This document shows, piece by piece, positions 522 through 33,733 of a stretch of 64,000 nucleotides of DNA. Below the pieces are notes generated by a model, which did not search any database, was not told where the DNA came from, and saw only the letters and a list, made by a program, of their open reading frames with translations. Each line of letters opens with the position of its first letter. Position 1 is the stretch's first letter. The DNA lies in NCBI RefSeq assembly GCF_016612505.1, contig NZ_JAENRR010000012.1, positions 1 through 64,000 on the forward strand, given 5' to 3'. A program made the position numbers and the translations under genes. Origin of the DNA: Carboxylicivirga marina. Lineage in GTDB: Bacteria; Bacteroidota; Bacteroidia; Bacteroidales; Marinilabiliaceae.

Positions 522-580
522 TTTGAGTTAAGCATTGTCAGCTTTACGCACATAAACCTAAGTGTTGTGATTTACTTTTA
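522..580 (+). promoter_or_regulatory. Shared operator/promoter module, copy 1
   Basis: Half-sites TTTGAGT (522-528) and TTTACGC (543-549) start 21 bp apart, with the invariant core TAAGCATTGTC at 529-539 between them. A -7-like box TACTTTTA lies at 573-580, starting 30 bp after the second TTT. The same arrangement, with identical spacing, occurs at three other operon heads. The box is 91 bp from the start codon of the gene at 672. The AraC-type output domain of the hybrid sensor at 52337 is the inferred binder. Confidence 0.75.
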
Positions 581-671
581 TCATATCGTGTGAATAAAGA
601 AAAAGTATAACTGTCCATCAGACATGTTCATGTGATTATTTGAAGGATTAATCAAGTTTTAAAGCGAAGCA

Positions 672-2174
672 ATGTATTTTACTGTAAAGAAGTTAACGTT
701 TTTCGGTGTTCTGTTTTTTGTAATGTTTTTCTCTATCAATTGTTCAAAGACTAATTCGGAAGATATGGTTATTGAAGAAGAAATAGAGGAACCTGAGGGA
801 CCTGTTCCGGCTCAGCAAAAGATTGTAATTGATGTTTCCAAAAGATTACATGCCGTTCCTCAAAAACCTGGTGGGGTTGTTTCTTGCTGGTTAATGGATT
901 CAGACATTGAACGCCCCAGACAAACGTCTTTTTCGGATGCCATGAAGGATATGGGAGTCAAATACATTCGCTTTCCGTATGGGCATTTAGCCGATAATTA
1001 TTTATGGGATGCCGATGGTGATTGGGGAAATACACTCACGCCTAAAGTAGCAACATTTGCACAGGCACCAGCAAAATGGGAATGGGCGGTTGATCAAACA
1101 AGCGGTGAATTTATCAAAGACATGGACTTTGATGAGTACATCAGCATTTGTAATAATGTGGGCGCTGAACCAATGGTTGTGGTTAATATCCTCTCGTATA
1201 AATACAAAAATGGTCCAAGTTATGAGCAGTTAAAAGAATCGGCTGTGGAATGGGTGCGTTATGCCAATATCACAAAAGGGTATGGTGTTAAACGCTGGGC
1301 TCTGGGAAATGAAGTTGACCATCATTCAGATTTGCTTTCAAAAGAAGAATACATGGCTTTGTATTCCGACTTTGCAAGTGCGATGAAAGAAGTGGATGCT
1401 GAAATAATGGTCGGTCCCGGCTTATTGGGAAACTGGCACGCAGCACTTGTAAGTCACGATCCGGATAATATTGATTTTATCTGTGCTCATAATTATTTAT
1501 ATAAATACGATTGGCGTAATCAAGACTATGCAGGCTGGAAACAGGCCTCCGATATTATGGTGAATCATGTTGAAACTGCACAAAATGCAGTTAATAATTC
1601 GTCGATACCTGATATTGAAATCCATGTGACCGAAATGAACTCAAGGCCTTGGAGTGATAAATCGGATAACGATGATTTGTTCCGTGCACTGGCTTATGGT
1701 GAAATGTTACTAAACGCTACCACCTTTGAGGATGTAAAAGCGACTTACGTTTGGAATACACATGGTCCCTGGGGAGGTGAGAATGAAAATACACCATATA
1801 ATGTGCTTGATCTGGATAATAACCGAGAACCAAGAGGTGATATCATAAAGCTAATTAATGAAAACTTGCTCGAACATTTTGTCGAAGTACCCAGAGTAAA
1901 GGGCTATTTAAGAGCTTATGCATCTGTGGATGAAAGTAATGAAAACCTACGCCTTATTCTTATGAATAAAAATGATGAAGAAGAAACGGTCAACATCAGT
2001 ACAAGGTTTGCAGATTTGCCATCGAATTACACCATGATATCTTATACAGGCAATGGCCCTCTTGATGAAGCTCCTGTATTAAGTGATGCAACAAATATTG
2101 ATATTACTGATGGGGTAATGAATGTTGAGTTAGCGCCCGTATCTTTTAATGTGATAACATTGAAATTGAAATAA
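672..2174 (+). CDS. Clan GH-A glycoside hydrolase, lipoprotein (GH39/GH51-like)
   Basis: First gene of unit 1. The N-terminus is a hydrophobic signal ending in a lipobox-like INC at residue 24, so the protein is probably membrane anchored. The body reads as a TIM barrel: a strand with the motif ALGNEV gives a candidate acid/base Glu214, and HVTEMNS gives a candidate nucleophile Glu321. This NE / E pair is the clan GH-A signature for retaining hydrolases. A small beta-sandwich follows (about residues 400-500), as in GH39, GH51 and GH30 enzymes. The family cannot be fixed by eye; arabinofuranosidase, xylosidase and galactan-active enzymes are all possible. It starts 9 bp before the GH116 gene and 91 bp after promoter copy 1. 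Clan assignment is fairly sure, activity is not. Confidence 0.6.
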   Translation: MYFTVKKLTFFGVLFFVMFFSINCSKTNSEDMVIEEEIEEPEGPVPAQQKIVIDVSKRLHAVPQKPGGVVSCWLMDSDIERPRQTSFSDAMKDMGVKYIRFPYGHLADNYLWDADGDWGNTLTPKVATFAQAPAKWEWAVDQTSGEFIKDMDFDEYISICNNVGAEPMVVVNILSYKYKNGPSYEQLKESAVEWVRYANITKGYGVKRWALGNEVDHHSDLLSKEEYMALYSDFASAMKEVDAEIMVGPGLLGNWHAALVSHDPDNIDFICAHNYLYKYDWRNQDYAGWKQASDIMVNHVETAQNAVNNSSIPDIEIHVTEMNSRPWSDKSDNDDLFRALAYGEMLLNATTFEDVKATYVWNTHGPWGGENENTPYNVLDLDNNREPRGDIIKLINENLLEHFVEVPRVKGYLRAYASVDESNENLRLILMNKNDEEETVNISTRFADLPSNYTMISYTGNGPLDEAPVLSDATNIDITDGVMNVELAPVSFNVITLKLK

Positions 2175-2182
2175 AACATACA

Positions 2183-4777
2183 ATGTATATGAAGAGCTTA
2201 ATTATAAGTGCCTTGATGCTGACTTCCTTAGGGACAGTTGCACAAACATCATTATTAAGTGAAAGGATTACTGCACTAAAAAAATACGACCAAGACCACC
2301 TTTACCGCATAGCTTTGCCGATGGGAGGTATTGGCACAGGTACGGTTTCCTTAGGTGGTTCAGGTGCATTGCAAGATTGGGAGGTGATGAATGTTCCAGC
2401 AAAGGGATATAGCACTGTAACGACTGGTAACGATGCACCTTTCTTTGCTATTTACACTAAGAAGAGTGGCGAAGCATCCAATACTAAAGCTCTGTTAGGT
2501 CCTATTCATTATGCCGATTATCAACATTACGAAGGACGCTCGGTCGATCACCATGGTTTTCCTCGGTTCCGTGAAGCCTCGTTTGAAACCACTTATCCAT
2601 TTGGAATCGTTAATCTGGCAGATGAAACCATGCCGGTTGATGTAAAGATTGTTGGCTACAATCCTCTGATCCCTGCTGATGCAGATGCATCAGGTATTCC
2701 AATGGCCATTTTAAATTATGAGGTGACCAATACTACAAATGAAACTATTGAAGTGTCAGTTTCAGGTAATATCCGCAATTTTATTGGAAAGGATGGACGC
2801 AAGCATACCTCTGACTGGAAGGGTGATTTTATCCCTACAGGAGCAAAAGACAATAAGAATGAATATAAAGCGACTAATAAGCTTCAGGGTATTTACATGT
2901 ATTCCGAAGGCGTAGACAAAGACGATGCGGCATGGGGTACATTGGCCCTGTCAACACCCAAAAACAATGATGGAGAAATCTCCTATCGAACAAGTTCAGG
3001 GCATAACCGTTGGGGAAACAGCGTGCTTGATTTCTGGGATGATTTTAGTGCCGATGGTTTGTTGACAGAAAAAGACACGTCGATTGACCAAGACCCAATG
3101 GCATCAATAGCAGTCTACAATACTCTAAAAGCAGGAGAAACAAAAACCTTTACTTTTTACATTACCTGGAACTTCCCTAATCGTTTTGCATGGTCGCCTG
3201 AAAAACTAACGAATTATTACTCTAAACAATATGAAAATGCATGGGATGTGATTGTAAAAGAGATTGAGCGCTTACCTGAGTTAACAGAGCAAACATTGAC
3301 TTTCGTTAAAGCCTTACAAGAGAGTTCTTATCCTGAGGTGATTAAAGAGGCAGCCTTATTTAATTTGAGCACCTTGCGTTCGCAAACAGTTTTCCGCACT
3401 TCCGATGGTTATATGTTTGGATGGGAAGGTGTGATGGACCGTTTTGGTTCTTGTTTTGGTTCATGTACCCATGTGTGGAATTACGAGCAAGCCACAGCTT
3501 TTCTGTTTAACGACTTGGCCAAAGGCATGCGTGAGGTTGAATTTAAGTATGCCATGAACAGCGAAGGCCATATGGGCTTCAGAACAAAACTGCCTTTGAA
3601 AGAAGGTGCTTCTGGTATTGATGTGGCAGCGGCTGACGGTCAAATGGGCACCATCATGAAGTTTTACCGTGAATGGCAATTGTCAGGTGATGATACGTTC
3701 TTAAAGGAATATTGGCCAAAAATTAAAAAGGCTTTGGCATTTGCCTGGGTCGAAAATGGCTGGGATGGCGATGTGGATGGTGTGATGGAAGGTGTGCAGC
3801 ACAACACCATGGATGTGGAATATTTTGGCCCTAATCCACAGATGCAAATCTGGTATCTGGGAGCATTGAAAGCGGCAGAAAAAATGGCGCTTCACCTCAA
3901 TGACAAAACCTTTGCTAAGAAATGTAAGAAGCTATACAAGAATGGTTCAGTCTGGACGGATGAGAACTTATTTAATGGTGAGTACTACGTTCATCTTATT
4001 CAAACACCACAGAGTAAAGATGATATTGCCAAAGGGCTGATGTCAAACATGGGTAGCAAGTCAATTGACAATCCTGAATTTCAATTGGAAACAGGTTGTT
4101 TGGTTGATCAGCTGGTTGGACAATACATGGCGCATGTATTGGGTTTAGGCTACTTGGTAAAAGAGGAAAATGTGAAGACGGCACTGTCAAGTATTCTGAA
4201 ATACAACCAGCGTGAAGATATGTACGAGCATTTCAATAACATGCGTTCCTACGCCATGGGTGATGAAAAAGCATTACTGATGGCAAGCTGGCCAAAGGGT
4301 GGTCGTCCGAAAAGTCCGTTCCCATATTGGTCTGAAGTCATGACCGGTTTTGAATATACAGCCGCCATTGGCATGTTATACGAAGGCATGGAGCAGGAAG
4401 GCTTAGAATGCATCAAAAACATCCGTGATCGCTACGATGGTCAAAAAAGAAACCCTTTTGATGAGGCTGAATGCGGGCATCATTATGCACGTGCCATGGC
4501 TTCCTGGGCGGGTATTATCGCTGAAAGTGGTTTTCAGTATTCAGCAGTGGATAAAACCATCAAGTTCACTGATAAAGCAGGCAAGTATTTTTGGTCGAAC
4601 GGTTCGACATGGGGGATGTGTGAGATATCGAAAGATGGCAAAGAATATAAGCTTACTTTGGAAGTGCTATATGGTGAGATGGAGTTAGAGAAACTTCAAA
4701 TTGGAGAAAATATGCATAAATCGTTTAAAAGCGCTAAGCTTATTACTGGAAAAGGAAAGTTAGAGTTTAGTTTTTAA
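2183..4777 (+). CDS. GH116 family beta-glycosidase
   Basis: Resembles the GH116 family (beta-glucosidase, beta-xylosidase and GBA2-type glucosylceramidase members). A signal peptide ends near AQ (residue 21). The N-terminal beta-sandwich opens with the glycine-rich [15 protein letters not shown] segment typical of the family. The C-terminal (alpha/alpha)6 barrel has HVWNYEQA, giving candidate nucleophile Glu435, and [14 protein letters not shown], giving candidate acid/base Asp544. The length (864 aa) fits full-length members. Linkage and sugar specificity cannot be read from the sequence. It is followed after 41 bp by a paralogue of the same family, indicating tandem duplication. Periplasmic or surface exo-action on oligosaccharides is inferred. 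An alternative start is the next Met, two codons downstream. Confidence 0.85.
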
Positions 4778-4818
4778 GAAAAACCAAGCAAGTAATAAGA
4801 AAACCAAGCTTAAATAAA

Positions 4819-7491
4819 ATGATCAGAAATTTAATTGCATTAATTGTAGTATTAAGCTTACCTGTGTTTATTATCGCTCAGGGAGATTTACAGAACTCAC
4901 AGAATAGTGAGTCGCCTTCATCAGAATGGCCCTTGCTAAAGACATACACCGGTGAATACCTTTCAGAAGTGGCCATGCCTCTTGGCGGTATTGGCACCGG
5001 AACAGTTTCCATTGGCGGTCGTGGTGACCTGCGCGACTGGGAATTGGGTAACAGAGGAGCGCTTGGCTGGACGCCAGGGGTCAAATTGGTAGAGCCTACC
5101 ATTGCCAATGCACCTTTTTTTGCACTTTATTTTAAGGAAAAAGGAACTGCAAAAGGACAGCTTCGACTATTAGAAGGACCTATTTCTGAATCAAAATATT
5201 ATGGCGATTGGGGATGTGATGCGTATAACGCAGGCTTCCCTCGATTTGAAGAAGTCGAATTTAAAGCGGCATATCCTTTGGCGCAATTGAGTTTCAAACA
5301 CAAAAACGTACCGCTTGATGTAAATCTAAAAGCCTTCAATCCAATGATTCCAGGCGATGAAGACAACAGCAGTATTCCTGTGGCCATTCTCACTTATTTT
5401 GTAAAAAACAACTCAGATAAAGTAATGGAATTTGCCGTATGTGGTATGATTCCCAACTATATCGGAATTGATGGCTGGGGTGGCAAAACAAACCAGAATG
5501 AGAACGAATTTAAAGATGAAAGCTCATTGAAGGGGCTTTATATGTTTTCAAATGGTGTCGATTCAACAGATGTGAACTGGGGTACAATGGCACTTTCAAC
5601 CAATTCAAGCGGAAAAGTAACGTATCGTACATCTTGGGCTAAACTAGGATGGAACTGGACTTTTCGCGAATTTATCGATGATTTCACTACTGATGGTGAA
5701 CTGGTAAATTTAGGCTTCAATGCAGACGCTAGAGATTTCAACACTGGCGATATGCTAGGTGAAGAAATGAAAAACAAAGAGAAATATAGCATACCTACGC
5801 CCCCTGCAACCCTTTCGGTAAAAGAAACGATTGCACCAGGTGAGGAAAAAGAAGTGACTTTCTACATCACGTGGAATTTCCCAAATCGCCGTGGCTGGGA
5901 TCTTGGAAAAAGCTGGTATGGTAATTTTGGTACAAAAGAAATAGTCGGAAACTACTATTCCACTAAATACAAAGATGCATGGGATGTAGCACAAAAAGTA
6001 AACAATAATATAATTACCCTCGAAAAAAAGACAGTAGACTTTGTTAGTGCATTTTGCGAAAGCGATATCCCTGAATCCATTAAAGAAGCAGCACTTTTCA
6101 ATAGCTGCAATTTACGTAGTCAAACGGTCTTTCAAACTGCCGAAGGATATCCCTTTGGTTGGGAAGGAACAGGAAGTGTGCAAGGAACTAAATTGGGTGC
6201 TTCTAAAAACGCTGGTTGGGGATTGGGTACTTGTACTCATGTTTGGAACTACGAATCAACAATACCTTTTCTTTTCGGTGATTTGTCCATGAAATTTCGT
6301 GAAGTTGAGTTTCTGCATGCGACTCACGATAATGGTGCGATGAGCCACAGAGTGGGTTTACCGCTTAACGAGAAGGCCAAAAGTTTTAAACATTGGGCAG
6401 CCGATGGTCAGATGGGAACATTGATAAAAGTATATCGCGACTGGCAACTTTCGGGCAATGATGAAAAGCTGCAAGAAATGTGGCCCTACATTAAAAAAGC
6501 TATGAGCTTTGCCTGGAAAGGCATTTGGGACACCAACAAGGATGGCGTCATGGAAGGTTCGCAGCACAATACCATGGATATCGATTACCACGGACCAAAT
6601 CCCCAAATGGCAGCCTGGTATCTTGGCGCCTTAAAAGCATCTATTGAGATGGCAGATTACATGGGAGACAAAGCTTTTAAAAAGGAGTGCGAAGTTTTAT
6701 ATAAAAAAGGAAGCTCTTGGGTAGATGCCAATCTGTTTAACGGCGAATATTACGAACAAATCATGCCTGAAAATCATAATAAGGTTGCTCAGTTAGGGAA
6801 AGGCTGTTTGGTCGATCAGTTGGTTGGTCAATACCTCGCACATACAACAGGTTTAGGCTATGTTTTAGACAAAGCCCATGTATCAAAGACCCTTGAAAGT
6901 ATTATGAAATACAATTGGGTAGACGATTTTAACAACCACACAAACACTTTCCGCAGTTTTGGATTAGGCGATGAAGCTGGATTGATAATGGCATCCTATC
7001 CCAAAGGGGAATTACTGGACTTTCCATTCCCGTACTACACCGAAATAATGACCGGCTTTGAATACAGTACCGCTGTTCATATGATTTATGAAGGACAAAC
7101 CGATAATGGAGAAAAAGTATTTGAGGCTATCCGAAATCGTTTCGATGGTAAAAAGCGAAATCCCTTTAACGAAGGCGAATACGGTCACCGCTATGCACGT
7201 GCAATGGCAGCTTGGGGTGGCGTAATTGCCTGGACAGGTTTTGAATATTCGGCTGTTACCAAGACAATGAAGTTTACGGATAAAGCAGGTAAGTACTTTT
7301 GGTCTAATGGTTATGCCTGGGGCATGTGTGAAGTATCGAAAGGTGGAGATGATTATAGGGTTCATTTGGAAGTGCTACATGGCAAAGTGGCTCTGAACAC
7401 ATTTCAATTGGGAGAGCATAAAGCTCATGCTTTCAAAAAAACGAATTCAGTTGAAGAAGGTGAGAGCCTAATGTTTAAGTATAAATTATAG
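4819..7491 (+). CDS. GH116 family beta-glycosidase (tandem paralogue)
   Basis: Paralogue of the preceding gene, with the same order: signal peptide ending near IIAQG, LPLGG-type glycine loop (here [15 protein letters not shown]), N-terminal beta-sandwich, then helical barrel. Candidate nucleophile is Glu479 (HVWNYES) and acid/base Asp587 ([14 protein letters not shown]). It differs by insertions, for example near residues 300-330 and 440-460 between the FGWEG and CTHVWNY motifs. These lie close to the active site and suggest a changed substrate pocket. It lies 3 bp before the CE20-type esterase gene and is clearly co-transcribed. Specificity is unknown; paired paralogues may act on different terminal sugars or linkages of the same polymer. 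Confidence 0.85.
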
Positions 7492-7494
7492 ACA

Positions 7495-9450
7495 ATGATA
7501 AACTTAAAAATAATATTAACACTTGTAGCAATAGCTATCAGTACCCAAATAAGTAAAGCTGATATAAATGTTGCTGATATATTTTCCGACAATATGGTAT
7601 TGCAGCGTAATCTCGCTGTAAAAGTGTGGGGGAGTGCTGATCCCGGTGAAAAAGTATTACTGAGTTTTAAGGGACAAAAGCTAAAAACCAAAACGGATAA
7701 TAAGGGGAGGTGGTCTGTGCTACTGAAGCCCATGCAAGCTGGCGGGCCATATGAAATGACCATTAGTGGAAAAAATGAAGTGGTACTTAAGAACATTCTT
7801 ATCGGCGATGTATGGATATGCTCCGGACAATCTAATATGCAATGGCCGGTTTCAAAATCTAATAATGCAGAACAGGAGATCAAAGAAGCGAATTATCCAA
7901 ATATTCGTTTATTTGAAGTGCCACGAAGTGTCAGCAATGTTCCTGTTGATAATATTCCCTTTGCCAAATGGAAGGAGTGTAGTCCTGAAACGGTTAAGAA
8001 CTTTTCAGCAGTTGGCTATTACTTTGGCAGGGATTTACAGAAAGAAATTGATGTACCGATTGGATTAATTCACACCTCCTGGGGTGGAACCTGTGTAGAA
8101 ACATGGACGTCGAAGGTATCCATTACAAAGCTTCCTAAATATGAAGATTTTGGCGCACGAATTGATAATTACGATGTGTTAACCATGGCTCAAAAGTTTG
8201 AGGATGATCTAAAGGAAGCTTTAGGTGGTTTCCCTGAAAAAGAAGTAGGCATGAAAGAAAAGTGGATGCTGCCCAACACAGATAGAAGCGACTGGTTGAG
8301 TATGACTCTACCAACCTTATGGGAGAATGCTGGTTATAAACGCCTGAATGGCCGTGTATGGTTTAGCTATGATATTAACTTAAGTGCAGAACAACTTGAT
8401 ACAACTGCCCAATTGCATCTGGGTAAAATACACGACTCCGACATAAGCTGGGTAAATGGCCAAAGAGTTGGCGGGTTGAATTGGGCCAACGAAGTAGAGC
8501 GTGTTTATCCTGTGCCTGCTCAATTATTAAAAGTTGGTAAAAACAACATCTCAGTGCGTGTCGAAGACAAGTATTATAAAGGCGGTTTTGCCAGTAAGGC
8601 TGACAAACTATTCCTTCAGCTTGGGGAGAAGAAGCTTCCTTTAAGTGGCGAATGGCAATTTAAGGTGGATACCGTCATTCCAGATTTTAAACCCTTTCCA
8701 AATGATGTACCAAGCTTGTTGTACAATGCCATGATTCATCCACTTATTCCATATGGTATTAAAGGTGTTATCTGGTATCAGGGAGAATCTAACACACCAC
8801 GTTCGAAAGAATACGAACTCACTTTTCCAAATATGATTAATAATTGGCGGGAGGATTGGCAGCAAGGTGATTTTCCCTTCCTATTTGTACAATTGGCCAA
8901 CTATCAACAGCCTGTAAAGAAGCCTAAAGACGATGCCTGGGCTGAATTACGCGAAAGCCAGGCTAAAACACTACATCTGGATAATACAGGAATGGCAGTA
9001 GCTATTGATATCGGTGAAGCAAACGATATCCACCCTAAAAACAAACAAGAGGTTGGGAATAGACTGATGCTATCTGCTCTAAAAGTTGCTTATGGTAAAG
9101 ATATCGTTCATTCCGGACCTATTTATAAATCAATGCAAATAGATGAAAATAAAGTCATCATCAGTTTTGACCATATTGGTTCTGGCCTGATTGTAAAGAA
9201 CAAGCATGGCTACATTAATGAATTTGAAATAGCTGGTGATGATAAGTTATTCCATTGGGCCAAGGCAAAACTAGATGGCGATAAAATTATCGTTTGGTCT
9301 GATCAAGTGGAAAAACCTATCGCTGTTCGCTTCGGATGGTCCATTAATCCAGCTGAATTTAACCTGTACAACCAAGAAGGCCTGCCGGCATCTCCATTTA
9401 GAACAGATGATTGGGAAAGTATGACGGATGGTTTATCATTTGATAATTAG
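7495..9450 (+). CDS. Sialate O-acetylesterase-like carbohydrate esterase (SGNH, CE20-type)
   Basis: A secreted SGNH-fold esterase. The signal peptide ends near SKA (residue 22). The ICSGQSNMQWPV motif carries the nucleophilic Ser113, GVIWYQGESN is the oxyanion/block III signature, and DIHPKNK holds the catalytic His513. A jelly-roll domain (about residues 250-390, including NGRVWFSYDINL and WVNGQRVGG) is inserted within the esterase domain, a layout known for CE20-type acetylesterases and long sialate O-acetylesterase homologues. It would remove O-acetyl groups from glycans so that neighbouring hydrolases can act. There is a 3 bp gap to the upstream GH116 gene and 19 bp to the next gene. Sialic acid is not implied by the name. 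Confidence 0.85.
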   Translation: MINLKIILTLVAIAISTQISKADINVADIFSDNMVLQRNLAVKVWGSADPGEKVLLSFKGQKLKTKTDNKGRWSVLLKPMQAGGPYEMTISGKNEVVLKNILIGDVWICSGQSNMQWPVSKSNNAEQEIKEANYPNIRLFEVPRSVSNVPVDNIPFAKWKECSPETVKNFSAVGYYFGRDLQKEIDVPIGLIHTSWGGTCVETWTSKVSITKLPKYEDFGARIDNYDVLTMAQKFEDDLKEALGGFPEKEVGMKEKWMLPNTDRSDWLSMTLPTLWENAGYKRLNGRVWFSYDINLSAEQLDTTAQLHLGKIHDSDISWVNGQRVGGLNWANEVERVYPVPAQLLKVGKNNISVRVEDKYYKGGFASKADKLFLQLGEKKLPLSGEWQFKVDTVIPDFKPFPNDVPSLLYNAMIHPLIPYGIKGVIWYQGESNTPRSKEYELTFPNMINNWREDWQQGDFPFLFVQLANYQQPVKKPKDDAWAELRESQAKTLHLDNTGMAVAIDIGEANDIHPKNKQEVGNRLMLSALKVAYGKDIVHSGPIYKSMQIDENKVIISFDHIGSGLIVKNKHGYINEFEIAGDDKLFHWAKAKLDGDKIIVWSDQVEKPIAVRFGWSINPAEFNLYNQEGLPASPFRTDDWESMTDGLSFDN

Positions 9451-9469
9451 ATTAACTAAGTTTTAATTT

Positions 9470-11023: not shown

Positions 11024-11054
11024 AGGGATTGACGCTAAATCAGAGAAAAGGGAA

Positions 11055-12515: not shown

Positions 12516-12520
12516 TTGGT

Positions 12521-21151: not shown

Positions 21152-21206
21152 TGGAGATGAATCTAATATACAATACCAATCATATCATTAAAATTTCCAC
21201 ACGACG

Positions 21207-22712: not shown

Positions 22713-22751
22713 ACAGAACCATCCAAAAATACTGTAAGCCTTTATTTCGCT

Positions 22752-22788: not shown

Positions 22789-22793
22789 ATGTA

Positions 22794-23040
22794 TCCAATA
22801 GCCTGAATTTATATTCCAACAGGCTTGAAAATGCCTTCAAGTGGCCTGTGAAACCGTTCCATTGGCTGGCTTTTTCCATTCAATCGACTTGAAAAGTAGT
22901 TCCAGAGGCTTGGTAGAGTGAGCAATTGGCTAAAAATCGCCTTACCGAGGTAATATATAGGCATCCACAGGCTTAATAAATAGCGTTTGGTCAATAAAAT
23001 GCGTTTCAATAATGCTCTTTATTGATTCAACGGAATTTAC
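22794..23040. repeat. Degenerate 21-bp tandem repeat array
   Basis: About nine to twelve units of roughly CCANNGGCTTGAAAANNNTT follow each other. The G before the C of the GGC core falls at 22801, 22823, 22844, 22865, 22887 (A in this unit), 22908, 22929, 22950 and 22971, a period of 21-22 bp, and weaker units continue to about 23033. Read on the minus strand the array gives a loose heptad (QPMERFH, RPLEGIF, KPVGI), but no credible start or gene. It fills the space between a terminator and promoter copy 3. Function unknown. Confidence 0.65.
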
Positions 23041-23132
23041 TCTCGCAGATAGGCGGAACAAGCTATTGTAAATCCAAATTTCGCTTAAGGCTCAATCTGA
23101 ATAACAATTGGTATAAAATAACAAATGGAATA
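23041..23132. other. Spacer before promoter copy 3
   Basis: AT-rich intergenic sequence with no gene or clear structure, between the tandem repeat array and promoter copy 3. Confidence 0.4.
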
Positions 23133-23191
23133 TTTGAGCTAAGCATTGTCAAATTTGCGCTCAAGCAATCCTTTCTTCTCAATTACTTTAG
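23133..23191 (+). promoter_or_regulatory. Shared operator/promoter module, copy 3
   Basis: Half-sites TTTGAGC (23133-23139) and TTTGCGC (23154-23160) are 21 bp apart, with the core TAAGCATTGTC at 23140-23150. Here the second half-site continues TCAAGCAATC, echoing the first half-site's TAAGCATTG and making the direct repeat most visible. The -7-like box TACTTTAG is at 23184-23191, 33 bp before the ATG at 23225. Confidence 0.75.
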
Positions 23192-23224
23192 TACAATGAA
23201 AATCTCATATCAAAATTGCCATCA

Positions 23225-25321: not shown

Positions 25322-26199
25322 AAATATACAGTTCAATACTATTATTTATACTATGTGTTTCAGTAGTGAACGCACAAAAAGGACCAGAATCAAATAAAAA
25401 AATGAAAGTGTTCATTCTTTCCGGTCAGTCAAATATGGTTGGTTGGGGTGATAGCGAAGAATTGCCTGATTCATTAAGGTATGGCATGAATAATAAACTG
25501 ATGTTTGAAAATGGTAAATGGCAGAAACTAAAACCCCATCAGCTGGCAAATGAAAAACAAAGGGAACGTTTTGACATGAAAGAATACTCCTTTGGGCCTG
25601 AAATTTCTTTGGCAACGGAGATGTCAAATGCCTATCCCAATGAAACCATTGGCATCATCAAGAGTGCAACAGGGGGTACAGGTATATTGGCTTGGTCGCC
25701 GACTTGGACCAAGGAACAGGCTGACCGTACCAATGATGGTAGAAAAGGCGATTTGTATAAAGTTTTAATCGATAAAGTAAAAGCGGCACAAAAAGCGGCG
25801 GATATTGAAATCGTCGGATTTTTATGGCAACAAGGTGGGAAAGACATGACAAATCTTTCAACGGCTAAAGAGTATTACAATAATCTGAACGCTTTGATTA
25901 CAGGGTTAAGACGAGATTTAGACCTGCCTGACTTACCTGCATTTATTGCTTGTTCGGTGACTAAACAAATGCTGAATAATGTAGATGAGGAGCAAATGGA
26001 AAAGCTAAAGAGAGCTAGACCCGGCGTTGAAGATGTTATAAGAGCCAGGTTTAAAGCCGAAGAAGAAATGCCAAATGTAAAAGTGGTTGTAACACCTAAT
26101 CTGGAGAAGCATCCTAAAAATGTGCATTACAATACGAATGGTCAATTGAAGTTAGGCAAGTATTATGCTGCAGCCTACATTGAATTTGTCAAGAAATAA
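25318..26199 (+). CDS. SGNH/SASA-domain carbohydrate esterase
   Basis: A compact secreted esterase (293 aa) with a signal peptide ending near VNAQ. FILSGQSNMVGWG gives nucleophile Ser38; GFLWQQGGKDM is the oxyanion-region motif, although the usual E of QGE is replaced by G; NVHYNTNGQLKLG gives catalytic His270. This layout is that of the SASA domain family, which includes CE6 acetylxylan esterases and sialate O-acetylesterase homologues. Deacetylation of the glycan is the inferred role. It is translationally coupled to GH50 through a 4-bp ATGA overlap, hinting that deacetylation assists GH50. It is much shorter than the CE20-type esterase at 7495. Confidence 0.82.
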   Translation: MKIYSSILLFILCVSVVNAQKGPESNKKMKVFILSGQSNMVGWGDSEELPDSLRYGMNNKLMFENGKWQKLKPHQLANEKQRERFDMKEYSFGPEISLATEMSNAYPNETIGIIKSATGGTGILAWSPTWTKEQADRTNDGRKGDLYKVLIDKVKAAQKAADIEIVGFLWQQGGKDMTNLSTAKEYYNNLNALITGLRRDLDLPDLPAFIACSVTKQMLNNVDEEQMEKLKRARPGVEDVIRARFKAEEEMPNVKVVVTPNLEKHPKNVHYNTNGQLKLGKYYAAAYIEFVKK

Positions 26200-26202
26200 G
26201 AA

Positions 26203-27327
26203 ATGAAATTGATTAATACTTTACAGTTGTATCAGTTCCTTTGGATAGTAATACTATTCATTTTGAGCGGATGTGCGACCAACAGAACAGAGGTCCTGCA
26301 GGAAGTTTGGGGTGAAGTGAAAGATAAGCAGGTTTATCTCTTCACAATAACCAATTCAAATGGGATGGTGATGAAAGTTACCAATTATGGAGGGATAATA
26401 ACATCCGTTTTAGTTCCTGATAAAAATGGCATAATGGAAGATGTTGTTTTAGGATTCGATAACCTTCAACAATACATTGCTCCCAATCCCTATTTTGGGG
26501 CTGTAATAGGTCGGTTTGCCAATAGAATCAGCAATGGTCAATTTAGTATTAAGGACTCTGTTTATCAGCTGTCTAAAAACAAAGGAGAACACTGCCTTCA
26601 TGGTGCCGATGAATTTAATTCCATTGTTTGGGATAGCGAAATTGTGGAAAATGAATTGGGCAAGGGAATTCGACTTCTTTATCTATCAAAGGACGGCATT
26701 AATGGTTTTCCTGGTAATTTAAATGTGGTTCTGACTTATACACTTACTGCAGATAATGCCATTCATATACGATGTGAAGCAGAAACGGATAAGGCAACGC
26801 ATGCGAATATGACCCAGCACAGCTATTTTAATTTGACGGGAGGTACTGAGTTGATTTATGATCATCGGATAAAAATAGATGCTAACTATTATGTTGAAGT
26901 GGATGAGCAGATGATACCTACAGGTAATATTTCATCTGTCAAAGGTAAAAGTTGGGATCTAAGCAGCATGACTCGTATAGGCGATAATATTCATCAATTA
27001 GCCCCAAAAGGATATGATCATTGCTATGTGCTAAATAAAAAGGAGGATGAATTAACGAAGGTTTTAGAAGTGCTTGAGCCAAAAAAAGGCCGAACCCTTA
27101 AAGTAAGTACAACTCAACCTGGTGTGCAATTATATACTGGTAATTATATAAGTTCCAAAATAGTTGGGAAAAATGGGATTCAATATAAGCCACATATGGG
27201 GTTTTGCCTGGAAACGCAACATTTTCCAGATAGTCCCAATCATCCTAATTTCCCATCAACTTTATTGTTGCCAGGAGAAAAATATGAAGAAGTAGTCATT
27301 TATGATTTTGGAGTTTTTGATAAATAA
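26203..27327 (+). CDS. galM: Secreted aldose 1-epimerase (galactose mutarotase family)
   Basis: GalM-family protein with a lipoprotein signal ending at SGC (Cys24). The family motifs follow in order: VTNYGGIITSVLVPD, GAVIGRFANRISNGQF, HCLHGADEFN, MTQHSYFNLTGG with catalytic acid His206, and MGFCLETQHFPDSPNHPNFPS with catalytic base Glu337. It interconverts alpha and beta anomers of galactose or related aldoses. Export is notable but known in Bacteroidota polysaccharide loci, where anomers are equilibrated outside the cytoplasm. It starts 3 bp after the esterase stop. The last bases overlap a degraded T9SS tail in another frame (27302-27561). Confidence 0.9.
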   Translation: MKLINTLQLYQFLWIVILFILSGCATNRTEVLQEVWGEVKDKQVYLFTITNSNGMVMKVTNYGGIITSVLVPDKNGIMEDVVLGFDNLQQYIAPNPYFGAVIGRFANRISNGQFSIKDSVYQLSKNKGEHCLHGADEFNSIVWDSEIVENELGKGIRLLYLSKDGINGFPGNLNVVLTYTLTADNAIHIRCEAETDKATHANMTQHSYFNLTGGTELIYDHRIKIDANYYVEVDEQMIPTGNISSVKGKSWDLSSMTRIGDNIHQLAPKGYDHCYVLNKKEDELTKVLEVLEPKKGRTLKVSTTQPGVQLYTGNYISSKIVGKNGIQYKPHMGFCLETQHFPDSPNHPNFPSTLLLPGEKYEEVVIYDFGVFDK

Positions 27328-27561
27328 TGTTGCGAATGAGGTATCTAAAGTATATCCAAACCCGGCTCAGCAAATGTTAAATATTGAATTGGGAAATGGT
27401 CAAAAATCAGATCTTCCCATAATTATTTACATAGCATGGGACGGAAAATCAAACAATTAACGCTTCAAAACAATAGAAATAGTATTGGAGTAAGTGACTG
27501 GTCAACTGGTATGTACTTTATTAAGACTTTGGGAGAGCGTGCCACAAAGAAAAAAATGTGA
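27302..27561 (+). pseudogene. Remnant of a T9SS C-terminal sorting domain (frameshifted)
   Basis: In the frame starting near 27302 the sequence reads EVSKVYPNPAQQMLNIELGN and on to DGKSNN, then a stop at about 27460. In the next frame it continues QLTLQNNRNSIGVSDWSTGM, then YFIKTLGERATKKKM and a stop at 27561. Joined, the two pieces form a typical T9SS tail (VYPNP..LNIEL ... W..GMYFIKT), broken by one frameshift. No body of a secreted protein precedes it; it overlaps the 3' end of the GalM gene. It therefore looks like the tail left after deletion or recombination of a former T9SS cargo gene. Confidence 0.7.
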
Positions 27562-27661
27562 GGTAGATTTAGTATTAATTTTGATTCAAGTTGAAATGCG
27601 GGGAGTCGATTAAAATAACTAAACTTGGTTAAGATTTCAGTACACTTTTAAAAAATATACA
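27562..27661. other. Short spacer before the PQQ-propeller gene
   Basis: AT-rich spacer with no gene and no copy of the shared promoter module. Together with the T9SS-tail remnant it accounts for the 334 bp between galM and the next gene. Confidence 0.4.
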
Positions 27662-28987
27662 ATGAGCATAACAAAATTATTACAACTAAGTGGTATCATT
27701 CTGTTGATTATGATTCAACAAGTTTCAGCCCAAGAGCATAAGACTACTGACTGGAATCAGTATCTAGGCTCTGATAGAAATGCAGCTGTGGATGGCGTAG
27801 CAATAGCACACAACTGGACAGAAAAGGGACCTGATAAAGTTTGGGAATTCAAACTGGGTCAAGGCTATGGCGGTGCAAGTGTTTTTAATGGAGAAGTATT
27901 TGTGCTGGACAGAATTATAGGAGAAGCAGATGTGCTTCGTTGTATTGATTCAAGTACAGGTGAAGAAAAATGGAACTATAAATATGAAGCAAAAGGTGAG
28001 TTGCCTTATCCCGGATCGAGAGCTGTGCCTACGGTCGATGAAAATTATGTTTGGTGTGTGGGTCCCCATGGACATTTAAAGTGTATTGATAAAAAAACAC
28101 ATCAATCTGTTTGGTCGCATAATTTATTGGATGAATACGGTGGTAAATTGCAACGTTGGGGATTTTCGGTGTCTCCTATTGTTGTTGACGATTTGGTAAT
28201 TGTTTCTCCGCAAGGTGAGAAGGCTGGTGTCGTTGCTTATAACAAATTAACAGGCGATGTCGTTTGGGAGAGTCGCCGCTTAACTGGTCAACGCTTTCAT
28301 GTATCACCAACCATAGGCGAATACGGAGGTATAACACAAATCATTATGACCAGTTCGTGTGTAAAAGGAGATGGATTTACAAGCGATGAAGTGGTTGCTT
28401 TTGAGGTCAACACAGGAAAAGAACTATGGCGCTACGAAGGATTTAATTCCTTTGCATGTATTGCTCCACCATTGGTATTGGATGAGAATCGTTTGTTTTT
28501 AACCTCATGTGCTTATAAAGATAAATACAATCCGGTTTCAATACTGTTAGAAATCTCATCCGATGGTGAAAACTTTGCGTTTGAGGAAGTTTTTAGAAAC
28601 GAAGAAGTTGGCTGTAAAATGCACCCGCCTGTTTTTGTTAACGATCATTTCTATATTAATAATAATGGACGACCAAACGAATTAGTTTGTTTGAATTTGA
28701 AAGGAGAAAGGGTTTGGGACAAGCAATCTGCACCCGGGTTCGAAATGGGATCAATAATTTTAGTCGATGGCCTAATTATTAATCAGAATGGTAAAAATGC
28801 TGATGTGTATTTAATTGAACCCTCTCCGGAAGCGTATAAGGAATTAGGGAAAGTTTCGTTGTTTGAATCAGACAAGTCACAAGCCTGGTCACCTATGGCA
28901 TTTAGTGATGGTAAATTATTTGTTCGTGACATGGAGAAGATGGTATGCGTTGATTTAGTAGGTGGGGCAGAGTTGGTGAAACACTAA
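27662..28987 (+). CDS. Secreted PQQ-like beta-propeller protein
   Basis: The signal peptide ends near VSAQ (residue 24). The rest is a beta-propeller of PQQ/BamB-like blades with repeated V.AYNKLTGDVVW, VVAFEVNTGKELWRYEG and LRCIDSSTGEEKWNY motifs (about six to eight blades, residues 35-440). No heme-binding CxxCH motif is present, so a quinoprotein dehydrogenase function is not supported. Such propellers occur in Bacteroidota and Planctomycetota glycan loci without an assigned role; sugar binding or complex scaffolding is possible. It is inside unit 3 between galM (with the broken tail) and GH2, with 334 and 177 bp gaps, larger than elsewhere in the unit. Confidence 0.7.
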   Translation: MSITKLLQLSGIILLIMIQQVSAQEHKTTDWNQYLGSDRNAAVDGVAIAHNWTEKGPDKVWEFKLGQGYGGASVFNGEVFVLDRIIGEADVLRCIDSSTGEEKWNYKYEAKGELPYPGSRAVPTVDENYVWCVGPHGHLKCIDKKTHQSVWSHNLLDEYGGKLQRWGFSVSPIVVDDLVIVSPQGEKAGVVAYNKLTGDVVWESRRLTGQRFHVSPTIGEYGGITQIIMTSSCVKGDGFTSDEVVAFEVNTGKELWRYEGFNSFACIAPPLVLDENRLFLTSCAYKDKYNPVSILLEISSDGENFAFEEVFRNEEVGCKMHPPVFVNDHFYINNNGRPNELVCLNLKGERVWDKQSAPGFEMGSIILVDGLIINQNGKNADVYLIEPSPEAYKELGKVSLFESDKSQAWSPMAFSDGKLFVRDMEKMVCVDLVGGAELVKH

Positions 28988-29164
28988 AATATAAGCTATT
29001 TCAACAGACTCATGAAGCGAGCATTTATTGGATAAAGTGAAATGGTGAAAATCAACTTCGCATTATAAGTTGCACACATGAGAATTTTTAAATTACCTGA
29101 CATTGCCTCACGATTCATCGAGGGGTGAATGACTTGTCATTGAGAATAATAATTAGTTAGTTAT
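28988..29164. other. Spacer between the propeller gene and GH2
   Basis: No gene. No clear terminator and no copy of the shared promoter module was seen, so read-through from unit 3 into the GH2 gene is assumed, although a separate weak promoter cannot be excluded. Confidence 0.4.
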
Positions 29165-31573
29165 ATGAAAAAAATTTGGGCAATATTTCTTATTGTGATT
29201 ATAGCTACTGCAACTGCTGTAGCACAGAAAAGCCATTCTGTTCGAGTTACAAAAGATTTTAATAATAACTGGAAATTCAAGCTAGAGGACAAAGCTTCTT
29301 TTTGTGAAATAGCTTATGATGATAGTCAGTGGCGAGTACTTACCTTGCCACATGACTGGAGTGTGGGAGCTAACTTTAGCAAAGAAAACTCCGGACGTAA
29401 TGCCTGGTTGCCGGGCGGTATTGCCTGGTATCGCAAAAGTTTTGTATTGCCCAATAATTACAAGGGCAAAAGTATAGAAATTCAGTTTGATGGTGTTTAT
29501 AAAAATGCAACGCTATGGGTAAATCAACATCCAATTGGCATTCAGCATGATGGTTACACCAGCTTTCGTTACGACATCACAGAATTACTTAGTTTCGAAC
29601 AAGAAAATACAATTGCTGTGCGTGTCGATAATTCCAATCAACCCAACTGTAGGTGGTATTCGGGCTCGGGTATTTACCGAAATGTTTGGTTGAATGTTAC
29701 TTCACCAACGCATATCGAAACCTGGGGAACATTCATCACCACACCTGAGGTTTCAGAAGAAGAAGCGAAAGTGAAAATTGTTTCTACCCTGAAGAACATG
29801 GACGAGGCAAAAGAGGTGAATATTGAAACGCTAATCTATGCCCCCAATGGGAAACAAGTTGCAATTGAAACTTCTGCCATAAAAATTGGAAATTACCAAT
29901 CGACTGACATTTCTCTATTCTTAAGCGTTAAGGCTCCTGAATTGTGGTCTGTTGCAACTCCTGAAATATACAGAGTCATCACTTACATTAAATCAGGAAA
30001 TGAAATCTTGGATGAATACGAAAGTACATTTGGTATTCGTACCATTGAATTTGATGCAGAAAAAGGTTTCTTCTTAAATGGGGAAAACATAAAAATGAAA
30101 GGTGTTTGCTTGCATCATGATGCGGGTTCCCTTGGTGGCGCTGTTCCTGATGAAGTATGGATTCGCCGTTTGCGAAAGCTGAAAGCCATTGGCTGCAATG
30201 CCATACGCACAGCCCATAATCCGGCGTCGCCTGAATTTATGACCATGTGCGATACCATGGGTTTCCTGGTCATGAATGAATTTGTAGATAAGTGGAATAA
30301 GCCTTACAGAAAAAACGCTCCCAAAGATCCCTTTTATAATGTGCAAATGGCAGATCCTAACTTCACTGTGGAGTGGCAGCAAAACTATGAGCAAACCATT
30401 CGCCGAGATCGCAATCACCCTTCCGTGATTATATGGAGTGTTGGCAACGAGAACCATCCAGCAGGTTCCATAGGACAAAACGATGGCTTACGAAGATATG
30501 CTTCATTTGTTCGTAGCCTAGATCCAAGCCGGCCTGTTATCTCCGGAATGGAAAGAGGAAAGGATGTAAAAAATGTGGATAAAAAGGTGGACGATATTAT
30601 TGAGTCCTGCAAATACATGGATCTTATTGGAATGAACTATGGTGAACAGTGGTGTAGTGCACTTGCGGATAAGAAACCGGGTAAGGCTTTTGTTAGTACC
30701 GAAAGTTATCGCTATTACAATTCTACACCCTTAAAAAGATATGCTAATGTAGAACGTTCACCTTGGCTTGATGTTATTGACAATGAGAACAACATGGGAT
30801 TGTTCCTATGGCCCGGGATTGCCTATTTGGGTGAATCACGTAACTGGGGCAGGATTGGTAGCGATGGAGTATTTGATTTTGCTGGCTTTCCCAATCCAGA
30901 TGCTTATTTATACAAAGCTTTTTGGTCCGAAGAGCCTACCGTTCATCTTGAAGTATATGGTAAAAAGACCGAAAAGATGAGCCAGTGGGGAATACCAGAG
31001 ATGCATCAAAACTGGAATTTACCCAAAGATACTATAGTAAATCTAGTCACTTACACCAATTGTGAAACGGTTGATTTATACCTCAATAACAAAAAAATAG
31101 GTTCTCAGAATTTATCCGATTTCCCCAACTGGATAATGAATTGGCAAAATGTTAACTACCAACCTGGTATTCTAAAGGCTGTTGGCAAAATTAACGGTAA
31201 GGCTGTTTGTGAATGTGAAATTGCCACTGTAGGGAAGCTACATCATCTGGAAATGAATGCTGATAAATCACAAGTTAAATCTGGCGACATTATTCATGTA
31301 GAACTGTCATTGCACGACAAAAAAGGTAGAGGTATAACAAATGCTGATGGGGAACTGCATTTTAAGCTGGAAGGTAATGCGCAAATAATAGCCTTAGAAA
31401 ATGGCAATAGTTCGGACTTAACTCCTTTTTCTAATAAAAAAACAAAAATGACTCATAAAGGCAGGTGCCTGTGTATAGTTAAAGTTGGTGATAATAAGAA
31501 TGAGGAAGTGAAACTATCAGTAAAATGTACGGGTATTAACACTCAACAATTGGTATTAATTGAAAAAAAATAA
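29165..31573 (+). CDS. GH2 beta-galactosidase-like enzyme
   Basis: A secreted GH2 enzyme; the signal peptide ends near AVAQ (residue 21). The jelly roll (about 28-185) has NAWLPGGIAWYRKSF and WYSGSGIYRNVWL, followed by an Ig-like domain, then a TIM barrel beginning FFLNGENIKMKGVCLHHD. Acid/base is Glu429 (WSVGNEN) and nucleophile Glu513 (VSTESYR). A GH2 C-terminal domain and a Big1-like domain close the protein. This subtype (GIYR.VWL, CLHHD) is frequent among beta-galactosidases of Bacteroidota. It is closely related in layout to the GH2 at 58424. Followed after 4 bp by the metallophosphoesterase gene. Confidence 0.86.
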   Translation: MKKIWAIFLIVIIATATAVAQKSHSVRVTKDFNNNWKFKLEDKASFCEIAYDDSQWRVLTLPHDWSVGANFSKENSGRNAWLPGGIAWYRKSFVLPNNYKGKSIEIQFDGVYKNATLWVNQHPIGIQHDGYTSFRYDITELLSFEQENTIAVRVDNSNQPNCRWYSGSGIYRNVWLNVTSPTHIETWGTFITTPEVSEEEAKVKIVSTLKNMDEAKEVNIETLIYAPNGKQVAIETSAIKIGNYQSTDISLFLSVKAPELWSVATPEIYRVITYIKSGNEILDEYESTFGIRTIEFDAEKGFFLNGENIKMKGVCLHHDAGSLGGAVPDEVWIRRLRKLKAIGCNAIRTAHNPASPEFMTMCDTMGFLVMNEFVDKWNKPYRKNAPKDPFYNVQMADPNFTVEWQQNYEQTIRRDRNHPSVIIWSVGNENHPAGSIGQNDGLRRYASFVRSLDPSRPVISGMERGKDVKNVDKKVDDIIESCKYMDLIGMNYGEQWCSALADKKPGKAFVSTESYRYYNSTPLKRYANVERSPWLDVIDNENNMGLFLWPGIAYLGESRNWGRIGSDGVFDFAGFPNPDAYLYKAFWSEEPTVHLEVYGKKTEKMSQWGIPEMHQNWNLPKDTIVNLVTYTNCETVDLYLNNKKIGSQNLSDFPNWIMNWQNVNYQPGILKAVGKINGKAVCECEIATVGKLHHLEMNADKSQVKSGDIIHVELSLHDKKGRGITNADGELHFKLEGNAQIIALENGNSSDLTPFSNKKTKMTHKGRCLCIVKVGDNKNEEVKLSVKCTGINTQQLVLIEKK

Positions 31574-31577
31574 ATAG

Positions 31578-33491
31578 ATGAAGAATATTTATGCAGCAAT
31601 GATACTTTTTGCATTAGTAGGGCTTCTATCCATGTTTAATAGTACAGCCCAAGAATACGAAACCTGGCGTTTTATCAATATTCCCGATTACCATAATGCC
31701 GAAGGATTTTCAAAAAATAGTCCCGAACGAGCAAAACGTATTGCTGATCAAACAGAGCAATTCAAACAAATGAAGGAGCGCCATGGTGGCGAGCTAATAA
31801 TTATGCCCGGTGATTGTAATGGAGGGCATTGGTATCGTCAAAAATACCTGAAGCCGTTCAAGTCAAACCCTGAATACAAAGATTTCTCTACAAAACAAGT
31901 TATTTTGGAATCCTCACGTTTGTGCTATGGTGGTTTATGGGATATTGTGCATGATGGTGGTTACGAACACTTTCTGATGGCAGTAGGCGACCATGAGTTA
32001 GGTGATAACCCATGGAAGAAAGGCAGTGAAGTAAGTAAGCATATCTCTACTTTTCGTCAGGGATTTGCCAATACCTTCACGCTTGATGAAAATGGACAAT
32101 CCCGATTTAATGAAAACATTGGTAATGCAATGCCACGACCAATTGGCACCGTATATGAGCATACTTCCAATGCTGTTCAATATAAGAACGTATTATTCGT
32201 CACGCTCGATATGTTCCGTTTTGACGATAAGGATAAAAATCTGGGAAGTCAGGGCGTAATAAATGGTGATATAGATGGTGAGCATATGCAGTGGTTCGAG
32301 TCCGTCTTATCCGAGGCACAGCATATCTCATCGATAAAACACATTGTTGTGCAGTCTCATCTGCCCATTATCTACCCAGTACGAAAATACGCCAGTAGCG
32401 GCATGTTGGTAGACAAAAAGGAAAGTGAGAAAATCTTAAATGTGCTCCGTAAGTATAAGGTTGATTTGTATTTGGCCGGAGAAGTTCATATGAATACGGT
32501 GACCAGAGATGCAAAATCAGATTTGATTCAATTAGTAGGCAGGGGTAATAATCTATCAAACCATACAGCAGTGGATGTGGTGCAGGACAAACTTCTACTC
32601 AATACTTATCATGAGAATGGAGAAAAACTTGGACGTTTGACCATTGACAAAAGTTCTGATAATAAAGTAATTGAAGGAACAGGCCTTTTAACACCCATCA
32701 CGCCGAATGGCTTACAAATACATTGGAGTTTTGATGAGCAATTGGATAAGAGTAATTACAAAAGCAGTGTGGAGGGTACTTTCCCGCAAAAGGGAAAGCA
32801 CAATCCTTTGTTGGCAACAATTAAACACCCAGGTGTTTACATAAATGATGGAGGTTTTAATACCGATTATTCACTTATTTGTGCCGATGTTAAACAAGCT
32901 AAAGGGGTGTTGGGGCAAGCTGCTCAAATAGAAGAGTCATCCAGCTTATTTGTTTTGCCCATGGGACCAATGGGTGAAGGCTATAAACGTACGCTGTCAT
33001 GCTGGGTAAAAACCACTGCTCATGGTAGACGACTAATTTTAAATAGTGGATCGTATTGGGGGCAAGGTCAGTTTTTTAACTTATCCATCAATGAAGGAAA
33101 CCTGGAAGTAGCCTTGCGCCCGGAAATAGTTGCATCCACAATAAATCAGCAGATTAACAATGGTGAATGGCATTGCTTAACTGTTGTTATGCCACATGAT
33201 GATGCCGTACTGGGTGAATTGAAATTGTATATCGATGGTCAGCTAGTAAATGATAAGCAATGTAACAATCCAGATATTAAGGTGAATACTTCTCAAGCTA
33301 GCTGGATGGCCATTGCAACACAAGTAGAGACTTATAAGACCGATTTGGCCAAGACAATGAATATGCAGGATTATGTAGGATTGTTGGATGATTTCAATAT
33401 ATGGACCAGGGCACTCAGTAATGATGAAGTTCTACAACTTTATACCGAAGGACTAAAAGGAATAAGTGCATTGGATATTGAGAAGCGTTAA
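31578..33491 (+). CDS. Calcineurin-like metallophosphoesterase with LamG domain
   Basis: The signal peptide ends near STAQ (residue 24). The N-terminal domain (about 28-370) shows the metal motifs of calcineurin-like phosphoesterases in order: PDYHNAE (D-x-H), MPGDCNGGHW (GDx), AVGDHELGD (GNHE-type, with D for N), VVQSHLPI (H) and LAGEVHMNT (GHxH-type, with E for the first H). The last two are imperfect, so catalysis may differ. The C-terminal part (about 395-630) is a LamG/concanavalin-type domain (LQIHWSFDEQLD ... GLLDDFNIWTRALSNDEV), likely sugar binding. Its role in a glycan locus is unclear; it might act on a phosphorylated or otherwise esterified substituent. Last gene of unit 3. Confidence 0.72.
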   Translation: MKNIYAAMILFALVGLLSMFNSTAQEYETWRFINIPDYHNAEGFSKNSPERAKRIADQTEQFKQMKERHGGELIIMPGDCNGGHWYRQKYLKPFKSNPEYKDFSTKQVILESSRLCYGGLWDIVHDGGYEHFLMAVGDHELGDNPWKKGSEVSKHISTFRQGFANTFTLDENGQSRFNENIGNAMPRPIGTVYEHTSNAVQYKNVLFVTLDMFRFDDKDKNLGSQGVINGDIDGEHMQWFESVLSEAQHISSIKHIVVQSHLPIIYPVRKYASSGMLVDKKESEKILNVLRKYKVDLYLAGEVHMNTVTRDAKSDLIQLVGRGNNLSNHTAVDVVQDKLLLNTYHENGEKLGRLTIDKSSDNKVIEGTGLLTPITPNGLQIHWSFDEQLDKSNYKSSVEGTFPQKGKHNPLLATIKHPGVYINDGGFNTDYSLICADVKQAKGVLGQAAQIEESSSLFVLPMGPMGEGYKRTLSCWVKTTAHGRRLILNSGSYWGQGQFFNLSINEGNLEVALRPEIVASTINQQINNGEWHCLTVVMPHDDAVLGELKLYIDGQLVNDKQCNNPDIKVNTSQASWMAIATQVETYKTDLAKTMNMQDYVGLLDDFNIWTRALSNDEVLQLYTEGLKGISALDIEKR

Positions 33492-33536
33492 ACCTTTAGA
33501 TTTTAAAATAAGATTGGGATACAAAAAAATGAATTT

Positions 33537-33583
33537 ACGTCTGCTCGGAAAATCTATTTCTATAAATGAGCAGACGTTTTTTT
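33537..33583 (+). terminator. Intrinsic terminator of unit 3
   Basis: A perfect 10-bp stem, ACGTCTGCTC (33537-33546) with GAGCAGACGT (33568-33577), is followed by a T-run to 33583. It lies 45 bp after the metallophosphoesterase stop and before promoter copy 4. Confidence 0.85.
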
Positions 33584-33674
33584 GTGTATAAGTCTTTTAG
33601 TCATTGCTTTTCATGCTTTACTTTATTCAGAATGAAAACGGCTGTATATCGAGCTTATCATTTGAATTAACAAT

Positions 33675-33733
33675 TTTGCGTTAAGCATTGTCCAATTTAC
33701 GCCTGTTTAATTGTAAGTTGACTTTTATTTTTA
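33675..33733 (+). promoter_or_regulatory. Shared operator/promoter module, copy 4
   Basis: Half-sites TTTGCGT (33675-33681) and TTTACGC (33696-33702) are 21 bp apart, with the core TAAGCATTGTC at 33682-33692. The -7-like box TATTTTTA is at 33726-33733, 26 bp before the ATG at 33760. Confidence 0.75.

Follow-up and report, generated by a model that had tools for sequence, protein, structure and literature searches.

For Bacteroides thetaiotaomicron, operators were predicted for 16 of its 36 hybrid two-component systems (HTCS), all of them direct repeats with a mean distance of 21 bp, and the operators of the mannan group consist of two 16-bp sites separated by a 5-bp spacer (excerpts of PMC3878776). 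HTCS fragments containing the receiver and the helix-turn-helix (HTH) domain have been gel-shifted on promoters with predicted sites, and a CHIP motif of the HTCS receiver has been described (excerpts of PMC11253607). Here we study a promoter module that occurs four times in a 64,000-nt stretch of the genome of Carboxylicivirga marina (hereafter the window: bases 1-64000 of the 119,762-bp contig C33; the genome comprises 5.65 Mb in 206 contigs). We predict from the sequence that the module is the operator plus core promoter of the HTCS encoded at 52337-56374 in the same window, and put the probability of this reading at about 0.88. An earlier note on this DNA, which knew of no described motif with this sequence, is not supported on that point: a pair of direct repeats with a period of 21 bp, placed ahead of polysaccharide-utilization genes, is the published form of an HTCS operator (PMC3878776, as excerpted), and the window itself carries an HTCS gene.

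The module shares with the operators of B. thetaiotaomicron the two direct repeats, set about 21 bp apart, and the location ahead of carbohydrate operons in the neighbourhood of an HTCS gene, and its layout of 16 + 5 bp is identical to that of the mannan group (both as given in excerpts of PMC3878776). It differs in the constant distance to a -7 box, in its setting among algal genes in Marinilabiliales and in the absence from the operons of susC/D genes, which are usual HTCS targets. What was compared is the architecture, to which the sequences of the published logos did not contribute. A second likeness is found in the I1-I2 site of AraC of E. coli, where direct half-sites also lie 21 bp apart and the downstream one stands beside the polymerase site. 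In contrast to AraC, the regulator that we propose combines a membrane sensor kinase and the DNA-binding domain in one chain, and the promoter is of the Bacteroidota -7 type. The carrageenan regulon of Zobellia galactanivorans is likewise spread over several operons, directed at a red-algal polysaccharide and without a susC/D pair in its main cluster; its regulator CgrA, however, is described as belonging to the AraC family and not as an HTCS, and the word operator is absent from the text of the source (PMC5698469, in part). For the use described here TAAGCATTGTC, the 11-mer at the centre of the module, was not found in print: the string appeared only in two cancer papers unrelated to it, in a search that covered neither figures nor supplements nor RegPrecise. 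By title or the start of the abstract we also found nothing on the motif in the literature on carrageenan regulons, on HTCS binding and start sites, or on Carboxylicivirga.

The four copies lie on the forward strand at 522-580, 19895-19953, 23133-23191 and 33675-33733, and a direct reading confirmed both the positions and the sequence given for them earlier. The distances from the box to the ATG are 91, 55, 33 and 26 bp (gene starts 672, 20009, 23225 and 33760) and thus fall within the range of 26 to 91 bp that had been claimed. In the window TAAGCATTGTC has exactly four exact matches. At up to two mismatches there are 26 matches against a chance mean of 26, so that only the exact matches are meaningful.

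In order to define the element we gathered 15 copies from six genomes: four from C. marina itself, three from genome G005, two each from G009, G011 and G012 (like G005 of the same genus) and two from Labilibacter (G064). With position 0 set at the T that opens the first TTTR, conservation extends from column -9 to column +27, and +51 is the first position of the box; the element therefore begins 9 bp upstream of the module start as originally described. The consensus is ATTGGCAnnTTTRCGC-TAAGC-ATTGTCAnnTTTRYGC, that is, two 16-bp direct repeats with a 5-bp spacer and a period of 21 bp. This parsing follows from a comparison of the columns with themselves at offsets 5 to 30, for which near-identical rows were removed and 12 of the 15 copies were used: there was a single clear peak, at 21, and among 2000 column shuffles none was as good at offset 21 and two were as good at any offset. 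In the window the operators occupy 513-549 (copy 1, whose first repeat is degenerate on its upstream side), 19886-19922, 23124-23160 and 33666-33702. The spacer TAAGC is present in all 15 copies, and the second repeat starts with ATTGTC in 13 of them and with ATTGTT in two. The 11-mer, which had been treated as a unit of its own, is hence better parsed as the spacer followed by the 6 bp that open the second repeat; its claimed invariance is true of the four window copies and drops to 13 of 15 overall.

The linker between operator and box measures 23 bp in all 15 copies although its sequence is poorly conserved. The box itself fits TAnnTTTR, a pattern with a frequency of about 0.001 per position, in 14 of the 15 copies, the exception being TACTTTAG in copy 3 (23184-23191), which is one base off. 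The other window boxes are TACTTTTA in copy 1 (573-580) and TATTTTTA in copies 2 and 4 (19946-19953 and 33726-33733). The TAYTTTWR box of the earlier description is thus present, but is better read as an ordinary -7 promoter box than as part of the regulator's site. It resembles the housekeeping promoter box of Bacteroidota, TAnnTTTG (excerpts of PMC7366714 and PMC9723704), from which it differs in the last base, mostly A (13/15), and in the lack of a constant TTTG in the linker. The exact TAnnTTTG occurs in one copy only. We saw no fixed -33 element: TTTG is found in the linker of six of the 15 copies, at four different places. A simple sigma-70 scan was uninformative, with counts near or below those of shuffles. 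If the box is placed at -12 to -5 (excerpts of PMC9723704), the operator would span -72 to -36 and transcription would start near 585, 19958, 23196 and 33738.

The 11-mer has six occurrences genome-wide, and around the two outside the window (C140:2862 and C145:5158) the rest of the module is absent. The 28-bp core TTTNNGYNAAGYATTGTCNNNTTTNNGC has four matches at 0 mismatches, all within the window, and at one mismatch there was no further place in the 5.65 Mb. At two to three mismatches we found six further places, compared to six for a reversed control pattern, and the full matrix never rose above -3.6 bits in the surrounding 2.6-3 kb. A matrix trained only on the 11 copies from the genomes of relatives ranked the four window copies first, at 45.4, 54.9, 57.7 and 60.1 bits, with the fifth-ranked window place on either strand at -7.5 bits. 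The half-site pattern TTTRYGC-N14-TTTRYGC fits just one of the four copies and has three genome places against two for its control, and is therefore uninformative alone. A chance origin of the module was considered and is ruled out by the 11-mer counts, the core matches compared to the reversed control and the matrix scan. Random positions genome-wide, which the earlier note had named as the observation that would speak against it, were seen neither here nor in relatives; these scans, together with the context of the transcription units, support its proposal of a promoter module common to four operons.

The HTCS gene (52337-56374, forward strand) encodes 1345 aa with a propeller sensor (Reg_prop), Y_Y_Y, HisKA, HATPase_c, Response_reg and an AraC-type HTH_18 domain in Pfam. 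Its translation contains the H-box SHELKTPL, the receiver Asp in ISDWMMP and CHIP, and the closest solved chain to its DNA-binding domain is named a hybrid two-component system protein (E 1.6e-28). No other regulator was found among the 30 scanned window proteins, nor in a GH2 protein extending across the window end, a scan that left aside short overlapping frames. With the HTCS as query we obtained 15 loci in named genomes. Five of these are orthologs with 75% identity, from four Carboxylicivirga and Labilibacter sediminis; the remaining ten are distant (28-38%). In the genomes with the motif the identity to the window HTCS is 93-94% for the DNA-binding domain, 86-89% for the receiver and 66-69% for the sensor.

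The motif and the regulator also co-occur. At up to one mismatch the motif was found in six of 71 family genomes, and an HTCS ortholog at E <=1e-290 in the same six, so that all six genomes with an ortholog and none of the 65 without one have the motif, by a pattern and an E threshold picked after copies and orthologs were known. An earlier, looser pattern, also at up to one mismatch, had matched in five of five genomes with an ortholog and in two of 55 without (G003 and G019), where the ortholog search covered the own genus and family and absence was assumed in 24 genomes of other families. By matrix the G003 place reaches 4.0 bits, and near the G019 place nothing exceeds -20.2 bits. A scan of related genomes, which the earlier note had proposed, finds the motif, by the pattern fitted to the known copies, in the genomes with the HTCS locus and not at random positions. 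The gene behind the motif varies across the 15 copies: it encodes a beta-helix protein in six genomes, the 701-aa protein in four, GH39 in two, LamG in two and GH43 in one. The beta-helix protein behind the motif is 62% identical in Labilibacter and 71-77% in the other genomes.

We propose that the HTCS would detect, in the periplasm, an oligosaccharide of a sulfated galactan from algae and would phosphorylate its own receiver domain, which would free the AraC-type domain. Two such domains would then occupy the same face of the DNA in head-to-tail order, at the 16-bp repeats 21 bp (two turns) apart and at about -72 to -36, and the downstream domain would abut RNA polymerase. As the -7 box comes without a conserved -33 box, transcription of the four operons and their 26 genes is proposed to depend on this activator. 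Binding, phosphorylation, the inducer, activation and the start sites are all things that we infer.

Several observations weigh against assigning the module to this HTCS. The motif and the regulator stand in one locus, so their co-occurrence ties the motif to the locus and not to one gene: it is confounded, since any gene of the locus would co-occur about equally. The spacer TAAGC is invariant, whereas published HTCS spacers are called non-conserved (PMC3878776, in excerpt); this is a general description and not a defining condition, and we keep the module among the HTCS operators. The first repeat is less tightly conserved than the second in its upstream part, which barely fits in copy 1 and in the corresponding copy of G005. 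No good site was found before the first of the susC/D-like genes that lie upstream on contig C140. Finally, one of the 12 other HTCS-sized matches in the genome could bind the module instead.

The last point leads to the strongest competing explanation, in which the direct repeats would be the operator of a regulator encoded elsewhere in the genome, either another HTCS or a different protein of AraC type. The genome does contain 12 further HTCS-sized matches (frames of 1280-1441 aa, compared over the part from kinase to HTH) as well as further AraC-type HTH frames. However, these HTCS are just 29-38% identical to the one in the window, and the motif is absent from 65 genomes that still list 28-216 candidate frames for the HTCS query. 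Published HTCS regulons moreover lie mostly beside the HTCS gene, with few distant operons (excerpts of PMC3878776), and we consider this explanation improbable. Less probable still, and very unlikely, is a promoter of an alternative, extracytoplasmic function (ECF) sigma factor with the conserved blocks as its -35 and -10 elements. The spacing between the blocks is indeed fixed, but a sigma -35 element does not take the form of a 37-bp repeated element spanning two turns, the 30 scanned window proteins include neither a sigma nor an anti-sigma family, and the sequence at +51 has the housekeeping form TAnnTTTG (PMC9723704 and PMC7366714, both in part). A transcribed leader element common to the operons, such as a riboswitch or attenuator, would agree with the position of the module shortly before genes and is hardly credible, as the module lies upstream of the -7 box and would thus not be transcribed from it, and no Rfam family was found in the window at gathering score. 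A recent promoter duplication or chance repeat without regulation, for which nothing speaks beyond the repetition itself, can be given equally little weight: pairwise identity of the window copies is 0.70-0.76 in the operator and 0.23-0.43 upstream, in the linker and downstream, so the copies are not duplicated DNA, and the linker length is fixed and the module conserved in five other genomes.

If the module is the operator of the window HTCS, a stronger version of this reading can be formulated, which we hold only tentatively and would sooner bet against than on. Repeat, TAAGC, repeat, 23-bp linker and -7 box would form a rigid composite in which the downstream half-site replaces the missing -33 element, and weaker copies in the same register would grade the output of other operons, including that of the regulator itself. 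A scan covered 887,020 positions from the six loci and the locus of an HTCS paralog of G012. The 15 copies scored 54-72 bits, and the next 12 places 21.2 to -6.7 bits. Eleven of these 12 stand in sense orientation ahead of a gene and show a box-like sequence at +51, which is partly selected for because the matrix includes the box; the exception, position 54013 of the joined G011 stretch (C76:106013), is inside a gene. Two of the eleven, both in G005, precede GH2a and a gene ahead of GH2c. The others precede a sulfatase operon (in G005, G009, G011 and Labilibacter), the HTCS itself in Labilibacter (0.6 bits), and the CBM35-HTCS operon in G012 (14.0 bits), G009 (8.5), G011 (8.5) and G005 (-0.6). 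In G009, G011 and G012 the last-named sites overlap the start of a too-early TTG frame and lie before the likely ATG.

In C. marina the first gene of the regulator's operon encodes a CBM35-like protein (49944-52271, forward strand). Its longest frame, from TTG at 49869, begins too early, and the ATG at 49944 opens a sequence like a signal peptide. Before this operon, at 49857-49924 on the forward strand, alignment with the better sites in four relatives points to a degenerate fifth site (register 49866) with the box TATATTCG; at -27.8 bits it is not significant alone. A hairpin at 56397-56434 follows the HTCS gene and is shared with a convergent gene. On contig C140 of the same genome a site at 170164 scores 0.4 bits, has TAGTTTTA at +51 and precedes a sulfatase gene whose operon lies upstream of the locus in relatives. 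C140 probably adjoins the window start, because the TonB-receptor, SusD and sulfatase genes found ahead of the locus in relatives are located on it (stretch 158001-180171) and because it ends 272 bp past a DDE transposase frame (179147-179899, minus strand). A susC/D pair is absent from the four operons; a TonB receptor and SusD-family proteins are encoded upstream on C140, and a SusC/SusD-like pair in Labilibacter, without a good site.

Further weak sites at -7.5 to -18.6 bits were noted at C140:145473, G009:C41:254, G011:C76:39015 and G064:C1:150106 (minus strand). Those in G009 and G011 have the form ATCTGTTAATAATCGTTCGATATGTGG with TATCTTCG or TATTTTCG at +51, in the same register with diverged repeats, and the sites precede sulfatase-like genes that look orthologous by eye. 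Beside the 55% identical HTCS paralog of G012 (G012:C1, L145 14150-14600) there is a divergent region before a SusC/SusD-like pair, with a repeat on the other strand. This 21-bp direct repeat, TTTGTGCTAT/TCTGTGCTAT, agrees in 13 of 16 bases, and seven of 2000 mononucleotide shuffles were as good; it is suggestive, though a single region picked by eye. A search for orthologs of the paralog that would serve for a footprint matched, among 247 sampled genomes of the order, only that of C. marina, by way of the window HTCS itself, and G012 was not among the genomes listed.

The four transcription units behind the copies all lie on the forward strand (gene assignments from Pfam). The first (672-19530) has ten genes encoding a GH39-like protein, two GH116, an SASA esterase, a protein of unknown family (517 aa), a sulfatase, RbsD/FucU, GH29, GH2 and GH95, and ends in a hairpin followed by a T tract (19560-19597). 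The second (20009-22712) comprises two genes, for GH43 and a CBM6-like protein with a sorting tail, and a hairpin with a short tract of only four T (22752-22785). In the third (23225-33491) there are six genes, for an unknown protein of 701 aa, an esterase, an aldose epimerase, a PQQ propeller, GH2 and LamG, and the stem of the final hairpin is CGTCTGCTC/GAGCAGACG with a T tract (33529-33585). The fourth (33760-49741) has eight genes, which encode a beta-helix protein, an unknown protein of 697 aa, an esterase-GH43 fusion, a lambda-carrageenase-like protein, three sulfatases and DUF4625, before a hairpin and T tract (49763-49790). The claim that each unit ends in a hairpin thus stands. Against it speaks a simple terminator scan of 19400-36000, which returned nine sites compared to 12.1 in shuffles, missed all three hairpins in that range and is taken as uninformative. 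The count of 26 genes (10 + 2 + 6 + 8) is correct only if the third unit is read through its internal gaps of 334 and 177 bp, in which we saw no hairpin with a T tract.

The enzyme families encoded point to a sulfated red-algal galactan as the likely substrate. Three proteins, the longest frames at 9470-11023 (517 aa), 23225-25321 (701 aa) and 35755-37848 (697 aa), have no Pfam match at E 0.001 and are candidates for new algal-polysaccharide enzymes; the 701-aa protein is split into two frames in G012 (C8 12079-14198). In G005 and Labilibacter the alignment to the esterase-GH43 fusion (37838-39595) is limited to the esterase part (residues 6-296 or 7-296); in G009, G011 and G012 it extends over nearly the whole length. 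The gap that follows the aldose epimerase gene contains, at 27328-27560, what reads by eye as the remnant of a sorting tail for type IX secretion (KVYPNPAQQMLNIELGNG...), a gene relic inside the third unit.

This kind of control is already known; the surprise lies in a spacer that does not vary and in a -7 box that always stands at the same register. In six genomes operator, promoter and regulator are linked at single-base register, and the 37-bp operator is a directly testable probe. The reading would assign 26 genes to one inducer, including the lambda-carrageenase-like protein and the three proteins without a Pfam match. In 2013 no operator was predicted for 20 of the 36 HTCS of B. thetaiotaomicron (excerpts of PMC3878776), and the fixed distance between operator and box is a rule to try there. 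If the composite reading is true and general, HTCS promoters would become readable from sequence, and their strength and targets predictable genome-wide.

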